Of a DNA stretch of 34,026 nt, positions 18-31,049 are shown in pieces. Positions within the stretch are counted from its first letter, which is position 1. Every line of letters starts with the position of its first letter. Below the pieces are notes generated by a model that was not told the DNA's origin, searched no databases, and saw nothing but the letters and a program-made list of their open reading frames with translations. This DNA comes from Bacillota bacterium. Lineage in GTDB: Bacteria; Bacillota; Clostridia; Christensenellales; DTU072. The DNA lies in contig WQYD01000014.1 in NCBI GenBank assembly GCA_009781445.1, positions 1 through 34,026 on the forward strand, written 5' to 3'. The position numbers were made by a program, and so were the translations under genes.

Positions 18-147
18 AGGTGGTTGGTGGCTGGTAGCTCTGTCGCCTGTGCCGTGGGTTGCACCCACGGTTATGCAAATCCTGCCCGCATCGGGGCAGT
101 TACGGATTTATCCATAATTCTGCATTCTGAATTCTGAATTCTTAATT
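18..147 (-). repeat. Hairpin module plus ATTCTGA cassette, copy 1 (inverted relative to 8714-8838)
   Basis: Read on the minus strand, this is an ATTCTGA-type cassette (117-144, four 7-bp units: ATTCTGC, ATTCTGA, ATTCTGA, ATTCTTA), a joint TTATGGATAAATCC, a CTGCCC/GGGCAG stem, a TGCATAA linker, and the stem CCGTGGGTGCAACCCACGG. It then runs into G/T-rich 7-mers (GGTTGGT, GGCTGGT). The same order recurs in opposite orientation at 8714-8838, with the second stem identical and the first-stem loop changed. No ORF is supported here. I infer a dispersed intergenic repeat of unknown function. Confidence 0.75.
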
Positions 148-4639: not shown

Positions 4640-4662
4640 GGAAACAAAAAAGTAAAAACGGC

Positions 4663-4682
4663 GGAATCTAATTATCATTATA
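4663..4682 (+). repeat. 20-bp core repeat, copy 1
   Basis: GGAATCTAATTATCATTATA, one of ten intergenic copies of the core (consensus GGAATCTAAATATCATTATT). It lies between the DUF1667 gene and the inverted-end element that follows. The upstream flank is A-rich and does not show a clear 7-bp cassette. Confidence 0.75.
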
Positions 4683-4684
4683 TA

Positions 4685-4826
4685 TCAGCGCACAGCGCAC
4701 AGCGCACAATGAAGGATTCTAAATATCATTATTAACTAATCCGCAATTCGTGCTTTGTACTTCGTACTTCGTACTTAAATTAATTATTCCACCATTGTGC
4801 GCTGTGCATTGTGCGCTGTGCGCTGA
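4685..4826. repeat. 142-bp composite element with inverted GCGCACA-type ends, copy A
   Basis: The left end TCAGCGCACAGCGCACA... and the right end ...TGTGCGCTGTGCGCTGA are inverted copies made of 7-bp GCGCACA-like units (three units left, four right). Inside are the core (4714-4733, GGATTCT...), a joint, and a four-unit CGTACTT cassette at 4749-4776. A 154-bp relative with the same order lies at 20707-20860. It has the shape of a miniature inverted-repeat element, but I see no clear target-site duplication and no transposase. The right end stops 13 nt before the next gene's ATG. Confidence 0.8.
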
Positions 4827-7075: not shown

Positions 7076-7083
7076 ATCATTGA

Positions 7084-7170
7084 GGGCATAGGGCATAGGG
7101 TTTAGGGCATAGGGGTGGAATTAGTTTTTTCAGCGCACAGCGCACAATGGTGGAATCTAAATCTCATTAT
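7084..7170 (+). repeat. GGGCATA cassette, GCGCACA half-element and core copy 3
   Basis: A GGGCATA cassette (7084-7111, four units: GGGCATA, GGGCATA, GGGTTTA, GGGCATA) is followed by a solo GCGCACA end (TCAGCGCACAGCGCACAATGG from 7130) and the core variant GGAATCTAAATCTCATTATG at 7152-7171. The core ends about 14 nt before the ATG of the following symporter gene, which lacks a clear Shine-Dalgarno. Confidence 0.75.
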
Positions 7171-7184
7171 GGAATTTTGAACAT

Positions 7185-8713: not shown

Positions 8714-8838
8714 TCAATTCAGAATTAAGAATTCAGAATTAAGAATTGTGGATTAATCCGTAACTGCCCCGAAGTGGGCAGGATATGCATAACCGTGGGT
8801 GCAACCCACGGCACAAGCGACAAGGGCGAAACAGCCAC
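8714..8838 (+). repeat. Hairpin module plus ATTCTGA-type cassette, copy 2
   Basis: Inverted counterpart of 18-147. TTCAGAA/TTAAGAA 7-mers are followed by TGGATTAATCCG, the stem CTGCCC...GGGCAG, GGATATGCATAA, and the stem CCGTGGGTGCAACCCACGG. After that comes GCACAAGCGACA, with CAGCCACC further on. Two short plus-strand ORFs in the track (8774-8974 and 8785-8982) only translate this repeat. Confidence 0.75.
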
Positions 8839-8899: not shown

Positions 8900-9004
8900 G
8901 CTCACTCTCTCATGCCCCGCGCTACGCTAACGCTTGCACAGGGTTATGCACATTGCGCCCCTCTGGGGCTTTAGCGGACTAATTAATAATGAGATTTAGA
9001 TTCC
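8900..9004 (-). repeat. Diverged hairpin module (copy 3) with core copy 4
   Basis: On the minus strand the core GGAATCTAAATCTCATTATT (8985-9004) is followed by the joint TAATTAGTCCGC, a GCCCC/GGGGC hairpin, a TGTGCATAACC linker and CAAGCG. This is the same order of parts as the hairpin modules at 18-147 and 8714-8838, but with different stem sequences. Confidence 0.6.
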
Positions 9005-9010
9005 ATAATT

Positions 9011-9092
9011 CGTACTTCGTACCTTGTACTTCGTACTTCTCAATAATGATATTTAGATTCCGCCATTCTGAATTCTGAATTCTGAATTCTTA
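9011..9092 (-). repeat. CGTACTT cassette, core copy 5, ATTCTGA cassette
   Basis: Four CGTACTT-type units (9011-9038), then a minus-oriented core (9042-9061), a 3-nt spacer GCC, then four ATTCTGA-type units (9065-9092). The last unit contains the TAA stop codon of the minus-strand giant gene (9090-9092). Confidence 0.8.
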
Positions 9093-12000
9093 ATTAATTC
9101 TCAAATCCCCCACACCCAATCCATTAGCATTTGTATGAATTAAATATGTGTATCCAAACGGCGTAACGAAGTTTGTGTCGTTTTCTATTTCTTCTGTGTG
9201 TATTGAATTGTTTTGCCCGAAAATCCAACCTGAGGGGACGCTTGTGGTGGGGAATTTTCCGCTTACGCTAAGCGGTGTGCCGTTAAACGAAACGAATACT
9301 TCTGAATAAGCAGGCGCAACGCTAAAGCCTGCAATATCACCGAATACCGCTAACCTTGAGATTGAAACGCTTATGGTTTGTTCGCTACCGTTAAATAGAT
9401 TTACATTTGTGGCTAAAGGTTGCAAGCGGAACTCTGTACCGTTATACACGAAAGCAAAGTAAAGGGTTCGTAAGTCATGATCATAAATAAGTGAGAGGCT
9501 TCGTGCAGTTGGGCTTTCGACATTCTTTTCGGTTGAGGCAATAACGAACCTAAGGTTTGAACCGCTATTTTCTTCCGCGGTAAAGGTTAAAGACGCTTGG
9601 GTTACGGCGCGCAGTGCCATTTCACCGAATGAGTTTGCCACTGCAAATTTTTGGTTTTGTGGAACAATGAATCCCGCTTCGCTTACGCGCTGAACATAAT
9701 TTCCGCCAAGTGTGAAATCGTAATTAAATCTGTGGTGTTCGGTGTTAAACAACGCGCGCGACAAGTTCAAAATCATATTGGACGCCGAAATTCCTGCTGT
9801 GCGCCCTATTTTATTAAGGCAAAGATCAAAGAAATCACTTGCGGTAAAGGCTTCGGCATAACCCGTGGGGACGACATAGCCCGTAAATTCAAAGCGTGAA
9901 TCAAATATATAAGAATATAAAAGCACGCCGTTTTCATAAAGCTCAAACACCACTCTTGCGCCCGAATTTTCCCTGCTAAAGGCGTCATAATATAAATCAG
10001 CCGTGTAAATTGCACCGCTGTTCCAATCAATAGAGGGCAAATCAAAGTAAGCGGTTTTTCTATTTACGCTTAAATATATTGTGGCTTCGTAATTATCTAT
10101 TGCCTCATTGTAAACCAAAGCAAGCACCGAATTATAGTAGCTTTCAAGCCCCACAGGGATTTGCCAAATTTTACCGATATAAGCGTTGTTCGTGAGTTGC
10201 GCTTCGTTTGTGCCGAACTTGGCATAGAACACTGATTCGGAATCCGAATCAGGCGCGGTATTATTAACAGAGAAGGAAAGGGAAACACTGCTGTAAGTGC
10301 CTGAACTGCTTGGCGTAATCCCAATATTTCTTATCTGGTTAGGCGCGGGGATTTCCACAGGGTTGTGTTCGGTAATTACTTCCCCTGCAAGAATGGTGGC
10401 TGATTTATAAGAGTGGGTTACGATAAGCGTAAGCACATAGTGCGAAATCAAGTTGCCGTTAAGATAAACCCTTAATTCCGCAGTGTGAACACCAAGAGAG
10501 GGATTAACCATAGTGTCTGCAAAGGGATTGGCGTAAGTTAATAAAGCAATCGGATTATTATTAAATAGGTAAGACAGCGTATAGCCCTCTGCTTTGGGGG
10601 TTTTAATGTTAAAGAGATTTTCAAGCGGAAGATACACACTATCAAAGCCTTCGGCAACATAAACGAACGATTGAGAACCGTGAGGTAGCACAAGCGTGCC
10701 ATAGTCGTCCTTATATCCTTGGCGCATTGTGTTAAAGTGGCGAACCCACACTCTAAGCCCCGAAATATCAAAAGCAGTTTCAGAATTATCGGTGGCGGTG
10801 TACGCGTCAAACGGAACGGATACAAGCAGGCTTTCGTCATTGATCACAATTAAGATTGTGTTAGTGAATTTGTTATAATAAATCTTTATTGTGTGCGTGA
10901 AGCCGTTAAATAGGTTAATACCGCTTAAGTTAATGGGAATAAATGTGGGAACACTATCCTTAATTGCCACGATATTCGCGCCTATTCCGCCGATAACAAG
11001 CATAAGCGAATCCGCATTCATGCTTCCGTTAATTAAAAGCGTGAATGAGAAATTGTGAACGGAATTAGGAATGAATTTGAACGCGGAATCAATAACATCG
11101 TAATTTCCTGTGCCTGCGGTTACCGAAACGAACTGCGCATAGGTATCCTCAGGGACATTTATTTCTTTTCCGTACACAAGGCTTTCCGAACCGCTACCAA
11201 GAACAAAGTCATGCGTGAAATGCTGTGAACTTTGAGAGAACACACGCAATATGAAATCATACTGATCCGAAAGGTTTGTAAGGGTTCGCCTCAGGTTAAA
11301 CAAATCGCCCACGGTTTGCAGGGCAAAACCAGCTGTGTAAAAGTCGTTTAGTTCAATAAAGGTGCCATTTTCCCATTCTGAACCGATAGGCATTTTATCA
11401 AAGCGCGGAATATTCAGTATGTTTAGCGCAAACTGATCTTGAAACCAAAGCACAACGCTTTCGTTGCTGTCGTTTGCCATATTGCTCGGCAAACCGCCGT
11501 CCATTCGTATTTCGCTTGCGGTGATTGAACGCCTGTAAATAAGCCCGCTTTCGGTTAAGAACTCAACCACGATTTTGCCAAAATCAACCGAACCGCCCTC
11601 ACCTCTTAATAAGATAAACTCTTGCTCTGCGTGTGCCATTTCGGTGATTTGTGAGTACACATTTGCTTTTACGGGTTTGGTTTCTTTAACTGTGTAATTA
11701 GTGTGCGCGCAGTTATTTGTTCCGCATGGGATTTCCCTCTTGCAGGCAAGTGAGAAACCGCCAAGCGAAAGGTTAACCTTGCCAAGCGCGGTGGGCGAAT
11801 CTATAGTGTGGGTGGGGGTAAATTCGCGCCCAAGAATATGGTGCGCACCGCCCTGCCCTGATTCGGTTCTAAAAATATTAAAATACTGTTCACCGTACGG
11901 AAGCAGAGTGGAAGCACCTGAATCGCGAAGCCAAGTAAATATAAAATCACGGTGCCAATAGTAACCGCTGTGAACCTCGTAAAAATCAATAGGTACTATA

Positions 12001-15000: not shown

Positions 15001-18000
15001 ATTCTTGCGGAATAACCAAACGCATTGCCACTGTACTCTTCGCCGTCAGGCAGTTCAAAGATAATATCGTTAAATGAAATAGGCGCGCCAAGAATTTCAA
15101 AGCTATGCGCCATGCCGTCTGCGGAACTAACATTGTAATTGCGATCCAAATTCGTGATAACCACAGGATAATTTCCCCGCCCTCTTAATGGGTTATCAAG
15201 CGAAACTCTAACCACGCTGTCCCTGTTGAAACCTTGGGGCGCAAACGGAACTTCGCTTAAAGGATTATCCACAAGCATAAAGCCTTTAACTTCGGCGACT
15301 TTACCGTCATAAACCTTTTCAAGATCACTTGGGGCAAATTTCACATAAAGCTGTTTCACAATTATTTGGAATATACCCCTGTCACCGTCATTTAAAACAG
15401 AGAAGCTGTAATTGGTGTTTTTACTTATAATATCGTCTATATCAATATAATAATCACCCATTTCTTCGCCTGCGGTGCGCTTTAGAATCCCGATAAGTTC
15501 GGTTAGGTGTCCGTTAAATACGGCAGTGAAACCGCCGATAGGATCATTGTCCCCGAATTCTTTGAAAGCATTATGGATAAGCACGCTTACTTCTTTTTGC
15601 AAAATTGTGAGGTTTGCGCTTGCGTAGTGGATTATGTAATTATTATAAGCATTCCAAACGCCTTCCGCATTTACCTCTGTGAACTCAGCGGAAATTTGGT
15701 AAACACCTGCGTCTGAAAGCGTTTCGGCTAAGCAGGTAAAGTTTAATCTGCCAAGCGCGCCCACGGTTAAGCCAACCATGTTTTCAAACGGATAAGCGAA
15801 TGCATACGAACCACCGCCGTTAGGCGCGCCGTCTATAAACCTGTTATATGTAACGCTGAATGAGGGGTTTTCTTCACCGAAAATCTTGCTTGCGCCTGAC
15901 ACGGTAACATAGAGATTTCTTGGCACGACTTCAACCGTGAAGCCCTTATCAAGAATCACATTGTAGTTTATATCCATTAAGCCAAGAGTTCCGCGCAAAA
16001 TGTCATAAAGCCCCACATTATGAACCCACATATTCGCCCCCGGCACAAGAACCATGCCTTCGGTTTCGGTTCCGTCATCTAAAATCCGCCCGAATGTCAG
16101 GCTTCCGTTAGGGTTCAAAAATTCGTCTGCAAACAGCCCTGTGTTGGGGATATTATTGCCCTGCCCGTCCTTAACTGCTGAGGCTTGCCACGGTATTGAA
16201 ACGCCCTGCACAGGCCCGTACTCAATCACGATATTTTCAGGGGTAACGAAAACATCTCTTGTAAAGATTTCCATTAAACAGCCGTCTTCGTAAATTATAT
16301 TGTAATTATTGCTGATTGCCGAAGACAGCCTTAATTCATAAATGCCTGCATTGGTTGTGTTAGATAAATTGTGGTTTACCAAATTCCTCAAGGCAACCAA
16401 ATTAAAGAGGCTAACTGAATATTCCGAACCGCTAATCATGAAGTAAAGCGCGTAACCGCCCGAAGTTTGTTCTGCAAACTGAACGGAATTAAAACTTTCG
16501 TTGAACGCAAAGGGCTTCGCGTTTTCGTCCTTTGTGCCTGAGGGCGAAGAACCCACCGCATAAAGATAAAGTTTTGGCATATCTTGCCCGTAAATTTTAG
16601 AACTGTCCTCAAGCCCGATATATATATTGCGCGGTTTGATTTCAAGGCGTTTTGAATTTATGCTTGTGGTTTTAAACGAATTGTGAACCAAATCAATGCC
16701 ACCTGTGGGCGCACCAAAGCCGTCTATTCCGCCTATCAGCGAATTGTACGAAACAATTATGTAATATAGCCCTGCTTCGGTGGGAATTTGCAAGAATTGC
16801 CCGTGCATTGAGGGGGTGCTTTCGTAAAGGTTATAAAGCGCATGGGGGACATATTCCACAGTGAACCGCCAATCCGCAAATGCGTTAGCTGTGCTTTGAT
16901 CGTACGAAGTGAAACCGCTAACCCCGATTTTGGGCATTCTATCCTGCATATCCTGCCCGATTTCGCCGTAAATAAATTCATACACAGGTGAGGAATCTTC
17001 ATAATCGGGTGAAGCGTTTCTTCTATCACGCATGATAATATCGTAATGCGTTTCGTACCGCCTGCCTTCATTCCAATAAATGAATATCCTTTGGGAAACA
17101 GGGGGTGCGCCTGTGTCCAGTTCGCTATTATTAAACCTTTCAATATTTATATAAAAATCGCTGTTAGAATTTGAGTTTGTGCCTATGGACGCATTGAAGA
17201 AGTCGGCAACGCGGATTGTTCCGTTATTATAATAAAGGGTTATTGAACCAAGTTCGCCGTTATCGTCCCTTATTGAGAAAGCCTCATGTTCCACATACAT
17301 ATATTTGGGCATATTGCGGATAGCGATATTTATAAGCTGTTTTTCGGCAATATTCAGCACAACCGTATCCCAAGCTACCAAACCGTCTAATTCGTAGCGG
17401 ATATCAAGGCGGATATTATTGCCTGTTATTCCGCTGTCCTTATCGTAGCCGAAAGGATTATTGGCTGAACGCTGAATATGTTCGCGCATTAAAGGCACAT
17501 TATATTCATCGCCGTTATTGAACACGATTCTTAGCCTTGCCGTTAAAAGATTAAGATCCATGCCCTCAATAACATTAAATACCGCCTGTGTGGAATGCAC
17601 GGAATGAAGCTGGCGGGGCGTAACATTAACTTCAATAGGAAGCCAGCAATCACCGCTTAAATCTTGATAATAGAGTTGCGGATTCTGTGTGCCTGTGTTT
17701 GCCTTATTGTATCCCACCACTCTGAGGCTTGTGCCGTCCCCTGCAAGTTCGCCGAGAGGAACGGTTGTCCGCGTGGTATTGTCGCTATAAGTTATGATTA
17801 CATCAAGCGTCCAAAGATTTAAGCCGTTTGCTGTGGGATAGGCAATAAGCTGTCCTAAAACGGTGCTAAAAAGCACAAAATCAATGTTTTGAATGAGTTC
17901 TATGCGCGGTGTTCCGCTTGCCCATTCCAATCTGATAGGCACAAGAGAGGCTATTTCCACGGTAAACGAACCGGTGAAAAACAAGCTATCCCCTGCGGAA

Positions 18001-20651
18001 TAACGCACGGTGATAAGGTTTTCTTTGGTTACGGTGCGTGAATCAAATCCTGTGATTTCAATATTAGGATTATCATGAAAAAGTGCGCCTGTGCGCGTAC
18101 CGCTTGCGTTAAGCAAAAACACTTCAAGCCCTGCCCAATTAGGGGAATCGTTAAGCACATATTTAGTTTTATGGGGCGCGTACACCTCAATGCCGATTAC
18201 AGGGTTAGCAATAACCGTGATTTGCGCTTCGTAATAATTATTGGGGTAAGTGTTATGATCCAAGGTTGCGCCTGCGTATCTCACTCTTATTGCATAGTTG
18301 ATATTGGGCGAAGTGTGCTGAGAGGGGTTATACCCTTCCACAATTATATTGGGATCAGATAGCGGAACGGTAAGCGAAGTGCGGTTTTCAAAGCGCAAAG
18401 TTAGCCCGCTTGCAAGAAGTTCCGTGCCAAGCCCGCCTGCCAAATCAAGCACCGAACCCGAATAAATTCTGCCAAGGCTTCCATTGGGAAGTTCAATATG
18501 CGTGATAAAATTGCGGACGGTAACGCTAAATTCAAGGTAGCCCACATTGATATCTTGAAGCCCTGTGTGCGCGATTTTCACCGTGCGTTGTTCGGAATAG
18601 ATTCCGCTTGCAAAAGGCTTCGTAAAGAACCAAGTTGAAAAGTCATTCGTCCACGCTTCGCCGTTTGTGCTAAAAATCCAAGATTGAGAATCTAACGAAT
18701 AAAACTCTTCCGCTTCTTGCCCGTTGTCCCCGCCGAAGAAAACTCTAATCTCAATTCCGCTTGGATTAAAGAGATAATTATGCAAATTATCGGGATCGCT
18801 TGGGTTATATAAGAGGAAATTTTTGCTTATAGGTTCATTGATAAATTCCATTCCAAGCACGCGCTTTACAACCCTTGCAGGAACAGAAGCATTATGAGAA
18901 TAAATTTGGTATTCGGCTATGTTTATAACGATAGGAATATCGGTAAGCACTAAATTGGAATTATCAAAACTTCCCACCATAGCAGGTGTAAGCGGGAAAA
19001 GCACTTCTTTGCCGTTATTTAAAAACGCTTTAATGAAGAAGCCGTTTGTGTTAATGCTTTCGTAGCGGAAAATCCTTATCGGTTCGCTTGCACTGCCGTT
19101 TGCGTCCGAAAGCAAAATTGAAGTTACTGCCACAGGAAGAACATCCAGTTCGTATTCAATGGTTAAATCATTGCGGATTCCGTCATGATATCTTATAAAG
19201 AAGCGCGCCTTGCCCACAAAATCAAGCACGAATTCAGTTTTGCCCTCATGTTCCGCGCCGAACATTCCTTGGGTAAGGGGCAAAATTCCGCTGTTAGTGC
19301 CGTTGCTGTACGATACCCTGAAAGCCCAGCCTTCTGTGGCATGGAAAGGTGTAAACGGTGTGTTAACATAAATGGGCTTATCTTGAAGCGGATTGCCGTT
19401 TGAATCCACGCTTCTTGTGCGGAAAATTTCAAGGCTTTCCACATTTTTATCCGTTAAAAATAATTCTAATTTAAAAGTTGTGCTTAAGCGTTTTGTTCCC
19501 GAATAAACGCCGATTTCCACTTCTTGGAAGCCCACCTTATCGGGATTAAAACCTTTTACAAAAATATCGTAATTGCCGATTGGGATTTCGCCGTTAACAC
19601 CGTCTACACAAACGCGTACGGTGCTACCCTGCCCGAATGTGTAAATTGCGCCCTGCCTGCCGTTAGAATAAACAGGTTGAAATCTTAGCCACGAAATATC
19701 AAGCGGTGTGCCTACGGATTGTGAGGGCGGTGGTTGCGGTGCTTGAATCAATATGTACTGCGCCACATCTTCTTCCACAACCCTAATGCTGAAAGTATCG
19801 TGAAATCCGCCGTAACTCACAATAACAGGGGTGGAAGCATTATTAGGCGGAATCACATTCATATTTGCCGAAAACGAAAGCCCAAGCGCACCACCGTTCA
19901 TAAAGATAACTTCGGGGATTCCGTTATTATAGTTTAAGGTTATTTCTCCCCCTGCCAAATCAAGTTCTTCGCCTTGATAATAAATTTCTTTGGCGGGAAG
20001 TTTGCTTACAATAATGCTTGTGAGAACCTTTTCGGCAACGGTGATTATAAAAGGTTCGCCGTTCGCTTTTTCGTCTACCGTGTGCGTAATGCCGTCATAC
20101 ACAAATGTGGCGGTTATCCTCTGCAAACCGTGCTTGGTTCTATCGTACCCCGAAACCATTTCGGCGGTTAAAGGGATTTTTAAATCGTAATGCCCTTCTG
20201 GGATTTCGCTAAAGTCGCCGTCCTCATTGCCAAAAAGGACATACACAAAAAGCCCGTCCTCTAAAAACAACTGCCCTTGAATATAGTTATCCTTAAAGCC
20301 CTCACCGCCAAGCCACGCTTTGCCCACCTTATTGGGCGCAACATTCACGAAAACAAAGCAGTTCTTGCCCTCATAAGAAATTGTGATAACTTGCGCTGTT
20401 TCCGTGTACCAAGGATCAAAGGAAGAATGCATATAAGGCGTAACATCCTTTAAATGCGTGGAACCGTCTGATCGTTTAACGCGGATTTGCGCACCGTTTA
20501 AATCAAATTCTTCGCCTTGAAGATATCTTAATTTGGGGGAAGTGTAAATTTCAATACCCGTTACGGTAACTTCTTGAGCGCAAGAAACAAGCGCGATAAC
20601 CGCAAAAAGTGCAATTAAAATTAAAATTAATATAAGCGCGCGTTTCTTCAC
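9090..20651 (-). CDS. Giant 3853-aa surface lipoprotein with Ig-like, MBG/YDG and LamG-like repeats
   Basis: An N-terminal lipoprotein signal, a hydrophobic run ending LVSC with Cys24, predicts lipid anchoring outside the membrane. Residues of about 28-1340 contain repeated bacterial Ig-like (Big_3-type) modules (YLQGEEFDL, YYQGEELDL and relatives). About 1340-2900 holds MBG and YDG modules (KIYGQDMPK, KIFGEENPSF, KVYDGK, REYGDLNF), each ending in DAGTY/DAGVY-like strands. About 2900-3853 has at least two concanavalin/LamG-like folds marked by NLFNGF and NLFNGS. A helical stretch of about 140 residues (about 2205-2350) interrupts one MBG module. There is no LPXTG or C-terminal membrane segment. 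The start is a GTG without a Shine-Dalgarno but with a -10 box 6 nt upstream. The likely role is adhesion or glycan binding, downstream of the sugar-use genes. No catalytic domain is evident. Confidence 0.88.
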   Translation of the reverse strand: MKKRALILILILIALFAVIALVSCAQEVTVTGIEIYTSPKLRYLQGEEFDLNGAQIRVKRSDGSTHLKDVTPYMHSSFDPWYTETAQVITISYEGKNCFVFVNVAPNKVGKAWLGGEGFKDNYIQGQLFLEDGLFVYVLFGNEDGDFSEIPEGHYDLKIPLTAEMVSGYDRTKHGLQRITATFVYDGITHTVDEKANGEPFIITVAEKVLTSIIVSKLPAKEIYYQGEELDLAGGEITLNYNNGIPEVIFMNGGALGLSFSANMNVIPPNNASTPVIVSYGGFHDTFSIRVVEEDVAQYILIQAPQPPPSQSVGTPLDISWLRFQPVYSNGRQGAIYTFGQGSTVRVCVDGVNGEIPIGNYDIFVKGFNPDKVGFQEVEIGVYSGTKRLSTTFKLELFLTDKNVESLEIFRTRSVDSNGNPLQDKPIYVNTPFTPFHATEGWAFRVSYSNGTNSGILPLTQGMFGAEHEGKTEFVLDFVGKARFFIRYHDGIRNDLTIEYELDVLPVAVTSILLSDANGSASEPIRIFRYESINTNGFFIKAFLNNGKEVLFPLTPAMVGSFDNSNLVLTDIPIVINIAEYQIYSHNASVPARVVKRVLGMEFINEPISKNFLLYNPSDPDNLHNYLFNPSGIEIRVFFGGDNGQEAEEFYSLDSQSWIFSTNGEAWTNDFSTWFFTKPFASGIYSEQRTVKIAHTGLQDINVGYLEFSVTVRNFITHIELPNGSLGRIYSGSVLDLAGGLGTELLASGLTLRFENRTSLTVPLSDPNIIVEGYNPSQHTSPNINYAIRVRYAGATLDHNTYPNNYYEAQITVIANPVIGIEVYAPHKTKYVLNDSPNWAGLEVFLLNASGTRTGALFHDNPNIEITGFDSRTVTKENLITVRYSAGDSLFFTGSFTVEIASLVPIRLEWASGTPRIELIQNIDFVLFSTVLGQLIAYPTANGLNLWTLDVIITYSDNTTRTTVPLGELAGDGTSLRVVGYNKANTGTQNPQLYYQDLSGDCWLPIEVNVTPRQLHSVHSTQAVFNVIEGMDLNLLTARLRIVFNNGDEYNVPLMREHIQRSANNPFGYDKDSGITGNNIRLDIRYELDGLVAWDTVVLNIAEKQLINIAIRNMPKYMYVEHEAFSIRDDNGELGSITLYYNNGTIRVADFFNASIGTNSNSNSDFYINIERFNNSELDTGAPPVSQRIFIYWNEGRRYETHYDIIMRDRRNASPDYEDSSPVYEFIYGEIGQDMQDRMPKIGVSGFTSYDQSTANAFADWRFTVEYVPHALYNLYESTPSMHGQFLQIPTEAGLYYIIVSYNSLIGGIDGFGAPTGGIDLVHNSFKTTSINSKRLEIKPRNIYIGLEDSSKIYGQDMPKLYLYAVGSSPSGTKDENAKPFAFNESFNSVQFAEQTSGGYALYFMISGSEYSVSLFNLVALRNLVNHNLSNTTNAGIYELRLSSAISNNYNIIYEDGCLMEIFTRDVFVTPENIVIEYGPVQGVSIPWQASAVKDGQGNNIPNTGLFADEFLNPNGSLTFGRILDDGTETEGMVLVPGANMWVHNVGLYDILRGTLGLMDINYNVILDKGFTVEVVPRNLYVTVSGASKIFGEENPSFSVTYNRFIDGAPNGGGSYAFAYPFENMVGLTVGALGRLNFTCLAETLSDAGVYQISAEFTEVNAEGVWNAYNNYIIHYASANLTILQKEVSVLIHNAFKEFGDNDPIGGFTAVFNGHLTELIGILKRTAGEEMGDYYIDIDDIISKNTNYSFSVLNDGDRGIFQIIVKQLYVKFAPSDLEKVYDGKVAEVKGFMLVDNPLSEVPFAPQGFNRDSVVRVSLDNPLRGRGNYPVVITNLDRNYNVSSADGMAHSFEILGAPISFNDIIFELPDGEEYSGNAFGYSARINPAVVRLVYNEFGQEIGSDSVSVVLQLVGASTVLNAGGYSVRILSITGGGANNYTLEDYEISQGVFVDLRTVEVSFEILQKVLEVRLYESLLLTLESDNGNTAVFTTVYSSQNIRMERNAGDFGVYETNGTPWDISFNVAVRLTEGRDDWQPSDVKYLNGEIDSYLVYTFQHFNTNYLIQLDKEYYVKILPRLVLIDIPAGSLIQPYNGQPPAIRNLQIGSDSGFTSDMIDFVFTPTDGQVLGDAGRYAISVSTQNLNHTVRLLADFYQFEITKATVNVRIEQHVRPYSGMPWLFELSTLALPQTAGTPPRIRNYRLESEFDIMDSFLTELMGLLNDSRGAFNRVIVPSPLSLVIDRANTAQSELTRLYDKIISEGGIEHLKKNDNGTDNSNYNEIISLIAGAGTNTLFGRLTELLHVLNTATDFSEGSTSLAQATALITVLNGLMSSLNALILKELNYIAFIVTPRDGGADSSLKDAGTYNVVLRGSRDPNRIYNLQSNNVVTITALRVDIYVDNLYMEYGTVDWKDGEDEDRFQDLGFTYRVMVNGVVTNAFDSEIVGKPVLSPSAYTLNDKTDAGKLRVIQGGYGIDMSSFANKDKHNLDIFITSPGRLHITRKVAYIQLTQNIGSGLGEDNPLISYGTDLEYMLLMNRWTYLPSYVVNGGTVEGGILAGDIWQSVIMGAGARYILWQGENIILNMDTVSAQPRAGQYTLTATGFLANNYEIMVLEGTLVVKPAVLEIDAGFSNLLSREYGDLNFSITYKGFRYNDAENLGFLALLNSVPINEFVAFWNSEDEGGGGNVRTGVNSGIHSVGFNTPIASDYGITDYIFVFEGEYDFEIVRARLDIEIRTAGGIKHIEFAYGMFAETNGIMPVKSTEFALFIGTNGYRNNDNADNSKLNSLNPLINFKKNVFDTGLEFDLGAGRFTFGENDFATHENYEFNVISTPFTVTRAELSVELDKELNIRLTSSNTSTWAITPYMVSNEIRYEEVEDPETGETDIVPIDFYEVHSGYYWHRDFIFTWLRDSGASTLLPYGEQYFNIFRTESGQGGAHHILGREFTPTHTIDSPTALGKVNLSLGGFSLACKREIPCGTNNCAHTNYTVKETKPVKANVYSQITEMAHAEQEFILLRGEGGSVDFGKIVVEFLTESGLIYRRSITASEIRMDGGLPSNMANDSNESVVLWFQDQFALNILNIPRFDKMPIGSEWENGTFIELNDFYTAGFALQTVGDLFNLRRTLTNLSDQYDFILRVFSQSSQHFTHDFVLGSGSESLVYGKEINVPEDTYAQFVSVTAGTGNYDVIDSAFKFIPNSVHNFSFTLLINGSMNADSLMLVIGGIGANIVAIKDSVPTFIPINLSGINLFNGFTHTIKIYYNKFTNTILIVINDESLLVSVPFDAYTATDNSETAFDISGLRVWVRHFNTMRQGYKDDYGTLVLPHGSQSFVYVAEGFDSVYLPLENLFNIKTPKAEGYTLSYLFNNNPIALLTYANPFADTMVNPSLGVHTAELRVYLNGNLISHYVLTLIVTHSYKSATILAGEVITEHNPVEIPAPNQIRNIGITPSSSGTYSSVSLSFSVNNTAPDSDSESVFYAKFGTNEAQLTNNAYIGKIWQIPVGLESYYNSVLALVYNEAIDNYEATIYLSVNRKTAYFDLPSIDWNSGAIYTADLYYDAFSRENSGARVVFELYENGVLLYSYIFDSRFEFTGYVVPTGYAEAFTASDFFDLCLNKIGRTAGISASNMILNLSRALFNTEHHRFNYDFTLGGNYVQRVSEAGFIVPQNQKFAVANSFGEMALRAVTQASLTFTAEENSGSNLRFVIASTEKNVESPTARSLSLIYDHDLRTLYFAFVYNGTEFRLQPLATNVNLFNGSEQTISVSISRLAVFGDIAGFSVAPAYSEVFVSFNGTPLSVSGKFPTTSVPSGWIFGQNNSIHTEEIENDTNFVTPFGYTYLIHTNANGLGVGDLRIN

Positions 20652-20666: not shown

Positions 20667-20706
20667 TATATATTTAAATATAACTATGAAAATTCGGTGA
20701 ATTTTA

Positions 20707-20860
20707 TCAGCGCACAGCGCACAACGCACAACGCGCAATGATTGATTCTAAATATCATTATTAGTTAAATAATCCATAATTCGTACTTTGTACTTCGTAC
20801 TTCGTACCTAAACTAAATAATTCCTTCACTGTGCGCTGTGCGCTGTGCATTGTGCGCTGA
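20707..20860. repeat. 154-bp composite element with inverted GCGCACA-type ends, copy B
   Basis: The left end (20707-20741) and right end (20826-20860) are 35-nt imperfect inverted repeats starting TCAGCGCACA, each built of four 7-mers. Inside are the core (20744-20763), a joint AGTTAAATAATCCATAATT, and a four-unit CGTACTT cassette (20782-20809). The order is identical to 4685-4826. It separates the symporter gene from the giant lipoprotein gene on the minus strand. No transposase or clear target duplication is visible. Confidence 0.82.
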
Positions 20861-20867
20861 ATAATGC

Positions 20868-22378: not shown

Positions 22379-22472
22379 TTTCAATTCAGAATTCAGAATT
22401 CAGAATTATGGATTTACTAATAATGAGATTTAGAATCCTTCCCTGAATCCTGCAACCTGCAACCTGCAACCT
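22379..22472 (-). repeat. ATTCTGA cassette, core copy 7, CCTGCAA cassette
   Basis: Four ATTCTGA-type units on the minus strand (22379-22406, the outermost degenerate), the joint TTATGGATTTA, the core in minus orientation (22419-22438), a 3-nt spacer, and four CCTGCAA-type units (22442-22469: CCTGAAT, CCTGCAA, CCTGCAA, CCTGCAA). The aldolase stop codon lies 14 nt further on, in a TTAGTGC-AAA-GCACTAA hairpin. Confidence 0.8.
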
Positions 22473-22485
22473 TTAGTGCAAAGCA

Positions 22486-23130
22486 CTAATTGTTCTTCCT
22501 TTCCGCAAATAAAGCAAAAACATCTCTCACGGATATTTCGCTTTTTCCTGAAAAGTACATTATTTCTTTCTTTATGTATTCCGCGCTTGCATCTTCCATA
22601 ACTTTGCAGGCTTTAAATGCGTCTGCAATGTTTGCGCCGAACACAACCGTTCCGTGAGAACTTAAAAAGCAACCGTTTCTATCGGTAAGCGCGCGCAAAG
22701 CGTTTCGGTTTTGCTTTTTTGTGCCTTGGATAGCGTAATCCGCCACGCGGGAAGCACCGCCCAAATATTTGCGCACATCGTCACTAACAAAAGGTAAATT
22801 CCTGCCCGAAGCCGCAAGCACGCTTGCATTTGGCGAATGAGTGTGAATAATCGCATTTGCCTCAGGCCTTGCCCTATAAATTGACGCGTGCAAACCGCAT
22901 TCAGAGGACGGCTTTGCCGAAAGGCGGTAAGTTAGGTGATAATAATTAACAATAACTATATTTTGGGGCAAAAGTTCGGTAAAAACCGAACCAAGAGGCG
23001 TAATAAGCATATGCTTTTCGTCCAGCCTTACGGAAATGTTTCCAAGCCTGCCAAAAACCAGCCCCCCGCCTTGAAGCTTTAAGCCGTAATCAACCATACT
23101 TTTTCTTAGTTGTTCTTCTCTTGTTTCCAT
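22486..23130 (-). CDS. Class II aldolase/adducin family protein, fuculose-phosphate aldolase-like
   Basis: A 214-aa cytoplasmic enzyme. Zn2+ ligands are visible as HTH (His96, His98) and SSHG (His159). Glu78 in SSECGLH matches the catalytic acid of L-fuculose-1-phosphate aldolase, and GNISVR near 30 is the phosphate-binding region. Length matches FucA and ribulose-phosphate 4-epimerase relatives, so substrate is not settled. An aldolase step would split a phosphorylated deoxy-sugar or pentulose to a triose phosphate and an aldehyde. The matching isomerase and kinase are not in the window. The ATG is 10 nt from a GCGCACA half-element with an A-rich gap and no Shine-Dalgarno. Neighbours (GH20 and GPH symporter) suggest use of glycan-derived sugars. 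Confidence 0.87.
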   Translation of the reverse strand: METREEQLRKSMVDYGLKLQGGGLVFGRLGNISVRLDEKHMLITPLGSVFTELLPQNIVIVNYYHLTYRLSAKPSSECGLHASIYRARPEANAIIHTHSPNASVLAASGRNLPFVSDDVRKYLGGASRVADYAIQGTKKQNRNALRALTDRNGCFLSSHGTVVFGANIADAFKACKVMEDASAEYIKKEIMYFSGKSEISVRDVFALFAERKNN

Positions 23131-23140
23131 ATTATTTTTT

Positions 23141-23319
23141 TCAGCGCACAGCGCACAATGGCGGTTTTATAATTCAGAATTCAGAATTATGAATGCAGAA
23201 TTATGGATTTATTTATAATGAGATTTAGATTCCAACCCTGCATCCTGCATCCTGCAACCTGCCCCCTCAATAATGATATTTAGTTTCCTTCATGTTTCTC
23301 GTTTCTCGTTTCTCGTTTT
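23141..23319 (-). repeat. GCGCACA half-element, ATTCTGA cassette, cores 8 and 9 with CCTGCAW and TTTCTCG cassettes
   Basis: The most complete mosaic in the window. A solo TCAGCGCACAGCGCACAATGG end (23141) is followed by four ATTCTGA-type units (about 23176-23203) and core 8 in minus orientation (23214-23233). A 3-nt spacer then leads to four CCTGCAT/CCTGCAA units (23237-23264), core 9 (23269-23288), another 3-nt spacer, and four TCGTTTC-type units (23292-23319). The last cassette and part of core 9 are translated as the C-terminus of the GH20 gene. Confidence 0.8.
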
Positions 23320-24891: not shown

Positions 24892-27800
24892 CTAATCAAA
24901 CCTTGAATTCACCTTTTGTTTTTTACCGCTTTCTATAGCTTTTTTATTGCGAAGCGCAAAGCCCACCGCCACAAGAACCGCAATAACCGCAATTCCGCCA
25001 CCGCTTACCGCAAGCGCGATAATAAGTGTGGTGCTAATTGGTTCTTGGGCGTCAAGCGCAACGATTGCGAAGAAATCTGCATCGGTGTAATTAAAGCTGA
25101 TAACCTCGCCGTCTGTCCGCGTTTGGGTTGCACGGGAAATCTTGCCGTCCTTAACGGTAACCACATTCACCGAAAGCCCTCTGATATTTTGCGGAATCAC
25201 GAATTCTGCCCTACCGCCCTCAGGCTTGGTTGCGCCTGAAAAATCAACCTTGTAAAGCACCTCTATGCGCGTGCCGATAAGCCCTAAAATATTTCTTTCG
25301 TTAGCGAAATCCGCCCTCACTTTATCAAGTGCTTCACCGCCCACGCTATTCACGCTTACAGCAGTATTTCCTGCAAATCCGCTATCATTTTCATATGCAA
25401 AGCCTGCATTTCCGCCACCTGTTAGGCGTGATTTTAAAATGTGGTGCGTGCCAGACAAATATTCAATGCTGTAGTTAGGCGCGGTTGCCCCTTGGGGGGT
25501 AACGGTGTGAATTCCCGCCATTTGAGGCACGCTTACAATAGAGGGCTTTTGCACTAATACCATAGGCATATTTTCATTTTGCCCTGCGATAAATCCGCTG
25601 TATGTAAACACATAATCGGGGGGGGTTGTTACCGTGTCCACATGTTCTAAATCTTCCACACCTATAAAAAGTTTCTTTGGTGTAATGGCAAACGCAAACA
25701 CCGCATTGCCGTCCACAACCGTGTAACCTAAGTCCGCCACTATTTCATAATTAGGATTATTTATAGAAACTTCATATCGGTAATTCCCGACATCGGAAGC
25801 AAGGCTTAAGGGTGCATTTCCGCTTCCGCTAAAGCATCGCATTTGCGCATTAAGCGCGTCTGCGGGCAAATTATTGCTAAAAACATATGTTGCGGTGTGG
25901 TGCGAAAGCCCGTTATATTCCCGAACTGCTTCCGCCACAAATTCAACCCTAATTTGCCTTTTAATAATTTCAAGTTCAACCTCACCAAAAGTTAACACAA
26001 AATTCCTTTGGCTTGCATTAGGCGTAAACCTAAAACCAAAGTTTAATGAATCGTCCCCGATAGCTAAACTTGGCACATGGCTTGGGTTATCCCATGCAAA
26101 AATTCCAGTAACATTCACCCCTGCCGTGCGGGTGGAAATAACGGAAGCAAGGTTTACCCTTGAGAGTTCGTCACCGTATTGGATTCCGATAGGTTCGTCT
26201 GAAACCTTAGTAAACTTAACTTCCGCGGGGAATATATGCAGGAAGATTTCATTAAGCGTAACCTTATAATTGGGTAACGGCACTAAATCCTGCGGGCTGA
26301 TTTGGTAGCGGTAAAAGCCGTAAGGCAGACTTGAATCATTAGTGGAAAATGCGTTTTCACCGCTGATTCTGCTGTTCATAACCGCCACTGGGAAACTTTC
26401 GCCGTTCTTACCTTTCACGGTATCCACTAATGAATTTCCGCACGGCAAGCTGTTATTAAACACAAAATTGCCCCAAGAAAGTTCGGGATCGTCTTCACCG
26501 AAATCTTTGCGCATATTAGGGTAGGAAGGATCACCGCTTACCATATTGATAATTATTTCATAAGGTAAAATAAAGTACATTGCGCCGTAAATTTCGCTAA
26601 TACTATAATTGGGATTTTCCGCACGGATAGCTTGAATATCTTTAAACGAAATTTGATAATCGTTCACATTGCCTAAGCCTAAATTAACAAAAAATTCAAT
26701 GTTGATTGAGTAGTCGGCTTCATTCATTAGGGTGCTTACATTTCCGTTTAAAAGATAAACCTTATATGTAAGGCTTAAGGAAGAATCGCCGTAAACCGCA
26801 CTCTTTTCGTCTGCACGGATTTCAATTTGAGGCTTTAATATCGTGAGTGTTAAGGGTGAATTAAAGAATGAATAATCAAAATCATATTCGTTTGAAATTG
26901 CGTCCTGAACTATAGTAAAAGCATATGTTTGCGCGTTCCAATCAAATTTTGATTTTGCTTCGTAGCTTTCGCCGTTAAGCATAAATTTGGGTGGCAAGAA
27001 ACCGCTTGGGGTTTCGCCACCGCCAAATATCATGAGGTTTAATATTGAGATTTCTTCGCCGTAATAAAAGCTAAGTTTGCTTGCGTCAAGGCTTAATGAT
27101 ATAAGGGATTTGGATACATTTATAGTTAGTGTGGTTTCGGCTAAGTTATAATTATCACTCTCTGCTTTAACCGCTTTAATAATAACTTCGCCACCGCCTG
27201 TGAACAGAACGGAAGAACCGTTTACTATTTCGGCAAAGCCTTTAACAATGCTGAATGTAACCGCACCACCGCTTGCGTCATTAAGCGAAAGAAGATAAGC
27301 GGTATCGCCGTAAGCATAGTTAATGCCGTTTTGCGGTTCGCCTATTTCTATGTTAAACGCAGGTTGATTTGCTTTATTAACCGTGATAACCGCGCTTTTG
27401 GTGCTGGCGCTTGCCATGTAATTACCGCTTAAACTTGCGTGCGCTTCATATGTTCCTGCGTCCTTAACATATGAAACTGCTTGCCCGCCCTGCTTATATG
27501 AAAATGAATTAAGGGTTATTACATTGCCGAAAACATTAGTGTAAGTCGCCACTGCTTGCTTTTCATTGCCGTCATAATCAAACACCGTGTTAATATATTG
27601 TAAATCCACAGGGCGGGGGGCAACGATAAGTTCATAGTATCCGCAATCCGCGCATTCGGAAAAAGATAGCTTACATTCGCTACTGCATTTAACGGCAAAC
27701 ACCGCTTCGTAAAAACTGCTTGCCTGCGCCACTACCTCAATCCTATAAGTGCCTGCGTTTACGCAAGGTGTGCTATAATCCCATTCGCTTCCGTTCCAAA

Positions 27801-30798
27801 ATGAAACAACCGCCCTTGGTGAAGGTTCAACCGAACCCACAGGCCCTTTGCCTGTAACATATTCAAAATTTGTAAAGTTTTCAAATGGGCGCACCGCACT
27901 GCCGTCCGCAGTAAGCTGAGGATTGCCGAAAGAATCGCTGTTTCCATATGTTCTGAACAGCCTTTCCGCCTGCGCGCCTTCGCTGTAATAAAGTTCTACC
28001 ACGCGCCTTGTGATAACGCCCTCTTCCCCCAGCACGATTCCGCCACTGTAATTTGTTAAAGCGTAATTATTTGCAGACGCACCCGAAAGCGAAAACCGAT
28101 ACACAAGATTATAGCCTTCCCCCGGATTATTTCTGAGAGGATTAGACGGATCTGTGAAAAGTACATCTGCTTCCACAATCACTTTGGGCGGATTGTTTCC
28201 CTCAGCCCTATCCGCCAAAGCAACACCGCCGATTTCGGCTTGAATCACAGGCAAAGGAACACCTGCGTCCTGCGAGAGGCTATCCCACTGCTTGGTTTTT
28301 GCGCCGGCTAATGCGGAAGTGGGAATTGTGAGTTCTGCCTTTTCAATTTCAAACGGCAAAACTTGCCTGCCACATACCACCAAATCCACACCGTTCAGCC
28401 TGCTTCGTACGGCAACGAAAAGTGAATATTCCCCCGCGTTAACAGGCGCAACGGAAGTTCCGCCGAAATCGGTTGCCGAAAAAATAAAGCCTTCGGGTTT
28501 TGGCAAAGTATCCTCATCGTACGCATAAGGCAAAGCATCGTAAACCTTGGCAGGCGCAACCGCAGGAACGCCCATTTCTGCCACGGTATAAATAACCCCC
28601 GTGAGATCATTGTGCATATTAAATTGAATGCTTAAGCGCACATGATCCAGCCCTGCCGTGCTACTTGGCGTAACCGAAAGGTTTAAAAGTTCTCTTCCTG
28701 CCGCACCGCCCACAAAAGTAAGGTACCGCCCGTAATAAATCCTTGCCGTGATAGTTACGGTTTGATTCTCATAGAATGAGGCTTCGTCTGCCGTGCTTGT
28801 CAGTGTGCCGAACACAAATTCACACGCAAGCAATCCGCCTATATTTGTGAATCTTTCCACGGAAAGCCTTTTAACAAACCTTAAATAAACCGTTTCGTTT
28901 TCAAGGCGCGAATCGGGAACATACACGCTTCTATCGGTAATTGTGGTTTCGTCCCTAAACCTAAATTCTTGCGAAAATCCGCCGTCAAGGTTCGGTAGCG
29001 CAGTAAAGCGCACAACGCCGTTAGTTAACGAAGGTTCGCAACCGCCGTTAGCGTCCACCACAAGTTTGTTCCCCCCTGCGTTTAGCGGATTTGCAGGATA
29101 GCCCTCATTTGAGCCAACCTTTTCCGCCACATACCATGAGTTAATTATTTGGTTTCCGCTGTTCTGCCAAAGAATTCCGTAAGCAATTTGATTTCTTGTG
29201 GAAATCGTTACATTGCTTAGGCAGTTTCTAATCGTGCTTGCCTGCGCAATAGCCACGATTCCGCCCACTTCGTTTCCGGATAAAACCGCACTTGTGCTTA
29301 CATTTTCAATAACTGCGCCCACCGCGTAAGAAGCCACTGTAGCCACTTGATCAAGCCCCGTGATTCTGCAAGTTTCGTCAAAATTAAGGTTCTTAACCGT
29401 CCCCGAAAGGTTTTGGAAAAATCCTTGCCAATATTCTGCGGGGTTATCTATCACGAGGTGCGAAATTGTGTGTCCGTCCCCGTCAAGCGTGCCACGGAAA
29501 GGAATTCCGCTTCCTGTTCCCGCGCCTGCCCCTATCGGTGCAAACGAAGTAACGCCAAGCATTGAAATATCCTGAGATAGCTTGAAATGTAAGCCCGAAT
29601 AAGCAAAACCGTTTCGGTTTACCGCATTTGAGAGGTTTATTAAATGCAAGGGGGCTGAAATGATAAAGGGATTTTGTTCACTTCCCCAGCTATCAAAATC
29701 TTGAGTTTCATGCCCATACCTTCTTATAGTTACGCTTTCGCGCGCTATACTTAAAGTGGAAGGATTATCCGCAAAGGTTATAAGCGCAGGGGCAAAATCC
29801 GCCGAAAAATTTGCCGAAGCAAACGCACGGCGCCAAACCGCACTGCCCAGTTCGCTTGCCTGCAAGGTGGAAATTTGAGAGTTTTGAAGCCCCACGAACC
29901 TTTCGCCGTCATCACCCATTCCGAAAACTGCCGTTTTGCCTGATTGCCCCAAAGTATCGGTGCTATAAAAAAGGCGCGAACACACAAGGTTGATAATTTG
30001 CACTGTTTCGGGTTGATTTTGTGAATTAAGCACGGTTTTCGTGCCAAGCAAGTTCCGCCCAATCAATCCGCCGATATCGCCGTTTCCGTTAATCTTTGCA
30101 AGGCTGAATCCGAATGAGATATTTCCAATCTTTTCCTCATCCGAAACGCCAAGCGTTTTTCCAAAATCCGCAATGCCTGCGATTCCGCCTGCGATTCCGC
30201 CGTTTAGCACAGAAATTTCACCGCTAAAGTAAGAATTTTCAATAGTTCCGCCTGCGTTCACCGCCACAATTCCGCCGATTACCTTCGCACCGCCCACAAA
30301 AGCGGTAGAAAAGCAGGATCTTATTGTTCCCCTGTTAATTCCCGCAATAGACGCACCGTATTCCGTAACACCTGCCAGTGAACCGCTTACCGTTCCACCG
30401 AAAACACTCAAGTTTTCCACCACCGCGCCTTCTTCCACAGTTAAAAACAAAGCCACTGTATCCATTACAGACGCACTGATTGCAGGATTTATAACCGCGA
30501 AAGAACCGCCGTCAAACTTGCCTCTAAATGTTCTGATAGGAATAAGGAAAGAAGAAAAAGAAATGTTTTGGCTTAGCCTAACGCTAACAGCACCCAAATT
30601 TTCTGCATTATGAAAAACTGCAAATTGATTCCAAGCCCCAGCCGAACCAATCACATAAGGATCATATTCCGTACCGCTTCCGCTAAAATCAGAATCTGCA
30701 AGCGTATAATTCCCTGCAAAAACCCCAAAAACCGCCACAAAGACGGCAAGCAAAAGCAACACAGCAAACGAAGCTATATTAAGCGCGCGCGATTTCAT
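24892..30798 (-). CDS. 1968-aa membrane-anchored surface protein with GLUG and MBG repeats
   Basis: A signal peptide (hydrophobic run about 9-30) is followed by about 500 residues of GLUG-type, probably right-handed beta-helix sequence (GGIVAVNAGGTIENSYFSG and relatives). A long series of MBG/YDG modules follows from about 760 to 1860 (VYDALPYAYDE, VYGDSSLSLTY, DFGEDDPELSW, EYNGLSHH, each with DAGTY/NAGEY-like strands). The C-terminus has one transmembrane helix (about 1925-1948) and a basic tail, with no LPXTG, so it is a type I membrane protein. A C-x3-C-x6-C-x2-C cluster lies near residue 1066. The start ATG lacks a Shine-Dalgarno but has a promoter immediately upstream. Its stop is 1 nt before the GH20 start, so the two are co-transcribed. 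Adhesion or substrate capture is the likely role. Confidence 0.88.
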   Translation of the reverse strand: MKSRALNIASFAVLLLLAVFVAVFGVFAGNYTLADSDFSGSGTEYDPYVIGSAGAWNQFAVFHNAENLGAVSVRLSQNISFSSFLIPIRTFRGKFDGGSFAVINPAISASVMDTVALFLTVEEGAVVENLSVFGGTVSGSLAGVTEYGASIAGINRGTIRSCFSTAFVGGAKVIGGIVAVNAGGTIENSYFSGEISVLNGGIAGGIAGIADFGKTLGVSDEEKIGNISFGFSLAKINGNGDIGGLIGRNLLGTKTVLNSQNQPETVQIINLVCSRLFYSTDTLGQSGKTAVFGMGDDGERFVGLQNSQISTLQASELGSAVWRRAFASANFSADFAPALITFADNPSTLSIARESVTIRRYGHETQDFDSWGSEQNPFIISAPLHLINLSNAVNRNGFAYSGLHFKLSQDISMLGVTSFAPIGAGAGTGSGIPFRGTLDGDGHTISHLVIDNPAEYWQGFFQNLSGTVKNLNFDETCRITGLDQVATVASYAVGAVIENVSTSAVLSGNEVGGIVAIAQASTIRNCLSNVTISTRNQIAYGILWQNSGNQIINSWYVAEKVGSNEGYPANPLNAGGNKLVVDANGGCEPSLTNGVVRFTALPNLDGGFSQEFRFRDETTITDRSVYVPDSRLENETVYLRFVKRLSVERFTNIGGLLACEFVFGTLTSTADEASFYENQTVTITARIYYGRYLTFVGGAAGRELLNLSVTPSSTAGLDHVRLSIQFNMHNDLTGVIYTVAEMGVPAVAPAKVYDALPYAYDEDTLPKPEGFIFSATDFGGTSVAPVNAGEYSLFVAVRSRLNGVDLVVCGRQVLPFEIEKAELTIPTSALAGAKTKQWDSLSQDAGVPLPVIQAEIGGVALADRAEGNNPPKVIVEADVLFTDPSNPLRNNPGEGYNLVYRFSLSGASANNYALTNYSGGIVLGEEGVITRRVVELYYSEGAQAERLFRTYGNSDSFGNPQLTADGSAVRPFENFTNFEYVTGKGPVGSVEPSPRAVVSFWNGSEWDYSTPCVNAGTYRIEVVAQASSFYEAVFAVKCSSECKLSFSECADCGYYELIVAPRPVDLQYINTVFDYDGNEKQAVATYTNVFGNVITLNSFSYKQGGQAVSYVKDAGTYEAHASLSGNYMASASTKSAVITVNKANQPAFNIEIGEPQNGINYAYGDTAYLLSLNDASGGAVTFSIVKGFAEIVNGSSVLFTGGGEVIIKAVKAESDNYNLAETTLTINVSKSLISLSLDASKLSFYYGEEISILNLMIFGGGETPSGFLPPKFMLNGESYEAKSKFDWNAQTYAFTIVQDAISNEYDFDYSFFNSPLTLTILKPQIEIRADEKSAVYGDSSLSLTYKVYLLNGNVSTLMNEADYSINIEFFVNLGLGNVNDYQISFKDIQAIRAENPNYSISEIYGAMYFILPYEIIINMVSGDPSYPNMRKDFGEDDPELSWGNFVFNNSLPCGNSLVDTVKGKNGESFPVAVMNSRISGENAFSTNDSSLPYGFYRYQISPQDLVPLPNYKVTLNEIFLHIFPAEVKFTKVSDEPIGIQYGDELSRVNLASVISTRTAGVNVTGIFAWDNPSHVPSLAIGDDSLNFGFRFTPNASQRNFVLTFGEVELEIIKRQIRVEFVAEAVREYNGLSHHTATYVFSNNLPADALNAQMRCFSGSGNAPLSLASDVGNYRYEVSINNPNYEIVADLGYTVVDGNAVFAFAITPKKLFIGVEDLEHVDTVTTPPDYVFTYSGFIAGQNENMPMVLVQKPSIVSVPQMAGIHTVTPQGATAPNYSIEYLSGTHHILKSRLTGGGNAGFAYENDSGFAGNTAVSVNSVGGEALDKVRADFANERNILGLIGTRIEVLYKVDFSGATKPEGGRAEFVIPQNIRGLSVNVVTVKDGKISRATQTRTDGEVISFNYTDADFFAIVALDAQEPISTTLIIALAVSGGGIAVIAVLVAVGFALRNKKAIESGKKQKVNSRFD

Positions 30799-30894: not shown

Positions 30895-31049
30895 GGGTTT
30901 AGGGGATAGGCAATAGGCATAGCGTTTAAATATGAAATATGAAATGTGAAATGTGAATTGTGGAATCTAAATATCATTATTAGTTAACCCACAATTTTGC
31001 ATTCTGAATTCTGAATTCTGCATTATTTAGTAGCCATAGCTACGGAATA
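30895..31049 (+). repeat. GGGTTTA and ATGAAAT cassettes, core copy 10, ATTCTGA cassette, small palindrome
   Basis: Four GGGNATA/GGCATAG-type units (30895-30922), four TATGAAA/TGTGAAA units (30931-30958), a 3-nt spacer, the core in plus orientation (30962-30981), the joint AGTTAACCCACA, four ATTCTGA-type units (30994-31021), then the GTAGCCATAGCTAC palindrome (31026-31049 region). This fills most of the gap between the divergent giant protein and restriction genes. The remaining 31050-31180 shows nothing I can identify. Confidence 0.78.

Follow-up and report, generated by a model that had tools for sequence, protein, structure and literature searches.

Mosaics in the window

The window, by which we mean the whole 34,026-nt stretch of DNA that was analysed, encodes two giant predicted repetitive proteins whose N-termini are signal-like (3853 aa at 9090-20651 and 1968 aa at 24892-30798) and, at 31241-33889, an 882-aa protein that by eye may resemble a fused DNA methyltransferase/restriction enzyme. 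When up to three mismatches are allowed, it also contains ten copies of a core sequence, AATAATGAKATTTAGAWTCC, which lie on the plus strand at 8985, 9042, 22419, 23214 and 23269 and on the minus strand at 4663, 4714, 7152, 20743 and 30962, as the initial annotation had placed them. The cores are parts of mosaics in which cassettes of tandem heptads form arms. Around the core at 22419, a left arm with an AATTCAG cassette (22383..22409, minus strand, the ATTCTGA family when read outward) is followed by the inner linker GGATTTACT (22410..22418), the core AATAATGAGATTTAGAATCC (22419..22438, plus strand), the 3-nt spacer TTC (22439..22441, plus strand) and a right arm with a CCTGCAA cassette (22442..22472, plus strand).

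The mosaic at 23142 is larger. Its outermost left arm is a short CAGCGCA cassette of the TGTGCGC family (23142..23160, minus strand), then come an AATTCAG left arm (23171..23204, minus strand), the inner linker GGATTTATT (23205..23213) and two units on the plus strand, namely core TATAATGAGATTTAGATTCC (23214..23233), spacer AAC (23234..23236) and a CCTGCAT/CCTGCAA cassette (23237..23267), and core AATAATGATATTTAGTTTCC (23269..23288), spacer TTC (23289..23291) and a GTTTCTC cassette (23292..23318). Two units of the same build lie on the plus strand at 8985..9095, one with core, ATA and a TTCGTAC cassette and one with core, GCC and an ATTCTGA cassette; the first of these recurs as a 63-nt exact repeat on contig C6. 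The gap of 3 nt between core and cassette, which had been described as constant, is seen at 22419, 23214, 23269, 8985 and 9042.

The remaining mosaics are on the minus strand. That at 4662..4825, in minus-strand reading, combines a CAGCGCA arm, a GTACGAA arm, the core, a TGTGCGC arm and a second core; at 7083..7171 a core with a TGTGCGC cassette is followed by an AGGGCAT array; the mosaic at 20706..20862 has TGTGCGC outer arms on both sides and a GTACGAA inner arm with the core; and at 30928..31024 an AATTCAG arm, linker, core and TATTTCA/CACATTT cassette follow one another. Cassettes without a core occur at 116..147 (ATTCTGA, plus strand) and 8716..8747 (AATTCAG/AATTAAG, minus strand). Heptad mosaics are adjoined at 41-110 and 8750-8822 by another dispersed repeat, which contains hairpins (CCGTGGGTTGCACCCACGGTTATGC... 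and CTGCCC...GGGCAG), gives a 107-nt inverted match of 91% and has more copies in contigs C20, C6, C13 and C15.

The core and the heptad families across the genome

All results come from one fragmented draft assembly of 1.89 Mb in 98 contigs, of which 787 kb were examined in stretches, window included, together with some extra contigs. The core is present in 317 copies in the genome. It appeared in none of 100 dinucleotide shuffles of the window, its reversed pattern had no match across the genome, and a search at two mismatches found no core in 33 genomes of the same family. Matches in a Marinagarivorans MAG and in the genome G036 are chance-like, with no heptads around either. The consensus of the core reads TAATGA[GT]ATTTAGA[AT]TCC, and it belongs to a set of linkers ending in WTCC that includes others such as TAGTTAATTAATCC and AAATAATTCC. 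Within this set, the core is the commonest intergenic linker.

Arrays with a period of 7 number 457 in the 787 kb, or 5.8 per 10 kb, while each of the other periods from 5 to 15 reaches at most 0.84 arrays per 10 kb and no more than one period-7 array (0 or 1) arises in Markov shuffles of the window. Extrapolated to the whole genome, this amounts to roughly a thousand arrays. Few families account for most of them, with about ten being dominant: TGTGCGC, ATTCTGA, TTCGTAC, CTATGCC, CCTGCAA, GTTTCTC, TATTTCA, TCTCGTC, CGTAAGT, TATTGCC and TTTTTAC. A cassette usually comprises 4-5 heptads and most measure 29-37 nt, so that the length of 28 bp assigned to them initially has to be revised. Read outward, the families are pyrimidine-rich (purine fraction 0.14-0.42) except for CGTAAGT (0.52). 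Among the consensus heptads inspected, only the AGGGCAT strand carries a G-tract of three in every unit, and the formation of G-quadruplexes therefore fails as a general feature.

The mosaics sit mostly between genes and are rarer where these diverge: among gaps of at least 80 nt they occupy 16 of 52 between divergent genes, as compared with 141 of 244 other gaps (p = 0.0004). Contigs C23 and C33 both start within mosaics, which suggests that the repeats may break the assembly.

Spacing and composition of the units

The constancy of the spacing across the genome, chosen beforehand as the point on which the fixed gap could fail, holds: the terminal TCC of the linker stands at a single offset from the heptad register for each family in 350 of 465 cassettes (97/130 for TGTGCGC, 81/98 for ATTCTGA and 35/40 for GTTTCTC). 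Many of the off-register cases are displaced by 7 or 14 nt, which fits the expectation for degenerate first heptads. The triplet itself varies with the cassette, being ACC or TTC for TGTGCGC, ATA or ACA for ATTCTGA and TTCGTAC, and AAC for CCTGCAA. Since successive units differ in their triplets, the spacer is not a duplication. The distance from core to core is also set by the cassette, with steps of 7: 55 for CCTGCAA, 57 (50) for GTTTCTC, 58 (51) for TGTGCGC and 48 (41) for TATTGCC.

On the other side of the core, where a single conserved joint had been proposed, there are in fact several linkers, of which GGATTAATTAACT adjoins ATTCTGA and TTCGTAC arms and GGAATTATTT adjoins TGTGCGC arms. 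The idea that a cassette type might be tied to one side is partly borne out. The GGATT side is dominated by ATTCTGA and TTCGTAC arms and the TCC side holds CCTGCAA, CTATGCC and GTTTCTC arms; TGTGCGC arms are mostly, and only mostly, on the TCC side. A search for arrays of more than two units yielded, besides 48 runs of two cores, nine runs of three cores, and none longer in the sample. The likeness to a repeat-spacer array that had been remarked upon is thus superficial, as the presumed spacers are dispersed cassette families and not unique sequences, and with at most three units in the sample a CRISPR-like reading is rejected.

The suggestion that core and cassette travel or function as one unit is supported by exact maximal repeats of 55-63 nt at unrelated distant loci, whose ends coincide with the edges of core and cassette, and by tandem units with cassette-specific spacing. 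It is limited by two observations: the same cassettes are also found behind non-core linkers ending in WTCC, and the copies in genes are without the core. Longer composites of 84-115 nt are common to different genes. We regard the unit structure, its fixed register and the dispersal of exact units as established.

Outward polarity of the mosaics

The larger unit, which the initial annotation did not describe, is a centred mosaic with strict polarity. Among 257 adjacent cassette pairs in tokenised mosaics, 66 are of the type '<<', 68 of the type '>>' and 123 of the type '<>', with no '><' pair at all, so that 123 mosaics radiate outward from one centre. The orientations of the families were taken from the data, but this amounts to about one binary choice per family and cannot explain 257 concordant pairs. 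Neighbouring cores within 150 nt behave alike (66 on the same strand, 3 divergent, 0 convergent). Outward polarity is absolute in the sampled mosaics.

The outermost arms are of the same family in 43 of the 123 mosaics, as against 25.0 expected, with none of 5000 shuffles as high, and the innermost arms match less often than expected (10 versus 18.3). No target-site duplication was recognisable around the matched-arm mosaics. The purity of the repeats does not differ between outer and inner arms (p = 0.76), and growth at the centre is accordingly not demonstrated by this comparison. The mosaic at 4662..4825, the only one with matched arms that was tested for folding, folds strongly (z = -7.0), whereas those around 22419 and 23214, whose arms are mismatched, show no stronger folding than shuffled sequences (z = -1.1 and -0.3). 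A hairpin is therefore not a general feature, and a general hairpin function is unsupported.

In-frame mosaics in conserved genes

In the 787-kb sample, arrays or mosaics lie in frame within the genes for AddA (four), an AddB-like nuclease, PflA, PyrC, FeoB, several EcfA-type ECF ATPases and others, and that for PcrA has one in-frame array only. Further contigs add a YbeY-Era ORF, an RqcH-like protein (two), AsnB and DnaX. The gene calls are simple longest ORFs, which biases this collection to mosaics that preserve the frame and gives no gauge of insertions that break genes. At C41:8151-9638 the mosaic joins YbeY and Era into one ORF, and at C2:9977-12310 two ECF ATPases are joined in the same manner. 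The mosaics in genes use stop-free linkers such as GGAAATATTATAAATAATTCC, none of them has the intergenic core, and the peptides SAHSAQRTAHNEG, IQNSEFRIQNEG and PMPYALCPMPS are recurrent in the inserts. As 7 equals 1 modulo 3, every heptad array is translated in all three frames, so that a strand can persist only if it has no stop triplet; judged from their letters, the arms in genes appear to comply with this rule.

PDB homologues align to both flanks and skip the insert, resuming at query position 126 after 46 in PflA and at 290/291 after 246 in PyrC. The orthologues in relatives, compared for these two genes only, are without the insert. In PyrC the mosaic occupies the position of a native loop, about 8-10 residues long, that is missing here: a relative has LNERFAPREGNFKMNPP, as against LS-insert-SNYKMNPP in the present genome. 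In PflA a native loop of this length has apparently likewise given way to a mosaic. The in-frame residence, and the absence of the inserts from PflA and PyrC of relatives, are firm observations.

Occurrence in relatives and other bacteria

Forty stretches of DNA from relatives, 603 kb altogether, contain one period-7 array, and among the sampled relatives the expansion is confined to the present lineage. Farther away, among 399 genomes drawn from the phylum, 8 besides the present one have an AATTCAG array (at one mismatch). Stretches of four of these 8, namely G157, G337, G358 and G422, of which the latter two belong to one family, have 0.5-1.7 period-7 arrays per 10 kb, densities that are biased upward as the stretches were mostly chosen around matches. 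The eight inverted neighbouring pairs examined in these four genomes have a polarity identical to that of the present genome. Period-7 arrays are also borne by contigs of a viral collection: one (L147) has dense (AATTGAC)n arrays in the purine-left, pyrimidine-right layout seen here, and another (L148) has several heptad types in a row.

The genome encodes two Y1 transposases, one of which is RAYT-like. No heptad arrays are present in 15 kb around the RAYT-like gene, which does not link this enzyme to the mosaics as their mobiliser. A different palindrome is found there, the long and near-perfect CCACGGGGACGGAGGAAATGGTGCGCACCATTTCCTCCGTCCCCGTGG near the 3' end of the ORF (contig C35, about 7130-7200).

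Origin of the mosaics

We think that the mosaics are a dispersed family of palindromic repeats and most likely small non-autonomous mobile DNA, a reading to which we assign a probability of roughly 0.6. Each basic piece consists of a linker that ends in (W)TCC, a spacer of 3 nt and a cassette with some 4-5 heptads in tandem. Such pieces are chained into arms whose reading direction is always away from an AT-rich centre with GGAWW...WWTCC at its bounds. Pieces would be copied to new places, to which the dispersed exact units, the lineage-specific expansion and the in-frame copies lacking in the relatives' genes point. New pieces would be added to existing mosaics at the centre alone or in one fixed orientation, and this would account for the absence of inward pairs. 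Within genes, copies would persist where they are stop-free and in frame, as only these are tolerated.

The lack of a recognised target-site duplication, of a linked transposase and of an age gradient, together with the apparent replacement of loops in two genes, leaves enzyme-free recombination as a serious rival, if in our opinion an unlikely one. Here, dispersed palindromes would exchange pieces through ordinary recombination or through template switching (gene conversion), without a dedicated transposition enzyme, and the polarity would be kept by exchange within aligned arms. The way in which few cassette types are reassorted combinatorially behind shared linkers fits such shuffling, as does the apparent replacement, and not simple interruption, of native loops in PyrC and PflA, but shuffling leaves unexplained how pieces arrive at new sites, for example in different loops of genes that are unrelated and without homology. 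Local replication slippage, which would create the heptad arrays independently at each place with the core as a mere common landing sequence, is already disfavoured and in our view highly improbable, because arrays at distant loci share the same internal variants in the form of exact repeats, few families make up most arrays, and polarity and TCC register are fixed. The steps of 7 in copy number, seen in the core spacing (51/58, 50/57 and 41/48), do speak for slippage, which probably edits the arrays.

The mosaics could instead be selected regulatory or structural sites, such as bidirectional terminators, RNA stability hairpins or arrays for the binding of nucleoid proteins. Their mostly intergenic location, the depletion between divergent genes and the strong folding of the mosaic with matched outer arms are in line with this, but mosaics with mismatched arms fold like shuffles, the sampled relatives lack them and many copies lie within coding sequence, and we consider selection for such sites to be improbable. 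More speculatively, in many bacteria that are not related to one another an undescribed and widespread mechanism might write arrays with a period of 7 bases as palindromes facing outward, and in the present lineage it might have turned into a modular mobile element by which surface loops of essential proteins are replaced in frame; we offer this only as a tentative idea.

Relation to known repeats and significance

The STRR sequences of cyanobacteria are heptamer arrays that occur alongside small dispersed repeats and are known inside rnpB. Unlike there, no insertion of this kind was seen in the RNase P RNA match of the present genome, which covers 324 nt for 367 model positions and leaves no room for a mosaic.

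Heptameric inverted repeats have been described in Xanthomonas (GGGAATC) and Nostoc (GGGGAYT) (Rehm et al. 2015, PMC4692102). Those of Xanthomonas mostly have four units and form about 180 sets per genome, mostly intergenic, and close pairs are reported to be always convergent with the purine-rich unit pointing inward (PMC4692102). Over-represented heptamer repeats had been noted in bacteria in 2007, with little detailed study by 2015 (PMC4692102). Period, number of units (about four) and dispersal are shared with the repeats described here, and the convergent pairing in Xanthomonas corresponds to the polarity observed here. However, one heptad type was studied per genome there, whereas the present genome has about ten types, shared linkers, a fixed spacer, arms of several units and many in-frame copies in genes.

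The intergenic mosaic elements of neisseriae combine dRS3, an inverted repeat ATTCCC(N8)GGGAAT, with RS repeats of 30-160 bp (PMC3898611, in the passages cited). As here, a repeat of roughly 20 bp alternates with longer repeat families in intergenic arrays of hundreds of copies, but those passages describe neither heptads nor an absolute polarity (PMC3898611), and the present core, which alternates with cassettes as well, is no ATTCCC/GGGAAT inverted repeat. The palindromic elements of Rickettsia, units of about 150 bp in ten families (Ogata et al. 2000, as reviewed in PMC10969869), are likewise short palindromes that lie in frame in unrelated conserved genes and are tolerated by the host protein. 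The present mosaics differ in being built modularly, as chains of heptad cassettes, and in apparently taking the place of native loops. In Bacillus, tandem repeats whose size is constant while their sequence varies (PMC8161180) resemble the cassettes in their fixed length, but measure 20-21 or 52 nt, compared with 7 nt plus linkers and polarity here. The closest kin of the mosaics are the heptameric inverted repeats, to which features of the neisserial mosaics and of the in-frame elements of Rickettsia are added, and they are a clear member of neither of the latter two.

The grammar of linker, 3-nt spacer, heptad cassette and outward polarity, together with insertions in conserved genes that can be checked for their absence from relatives, brings the origin of the seven-base period, of the polarity and of the spread within reach of direct tests. 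The mosaics would also provide a second, modular example of selfish-looking DNA that is tolerated in frame by essential proteins.
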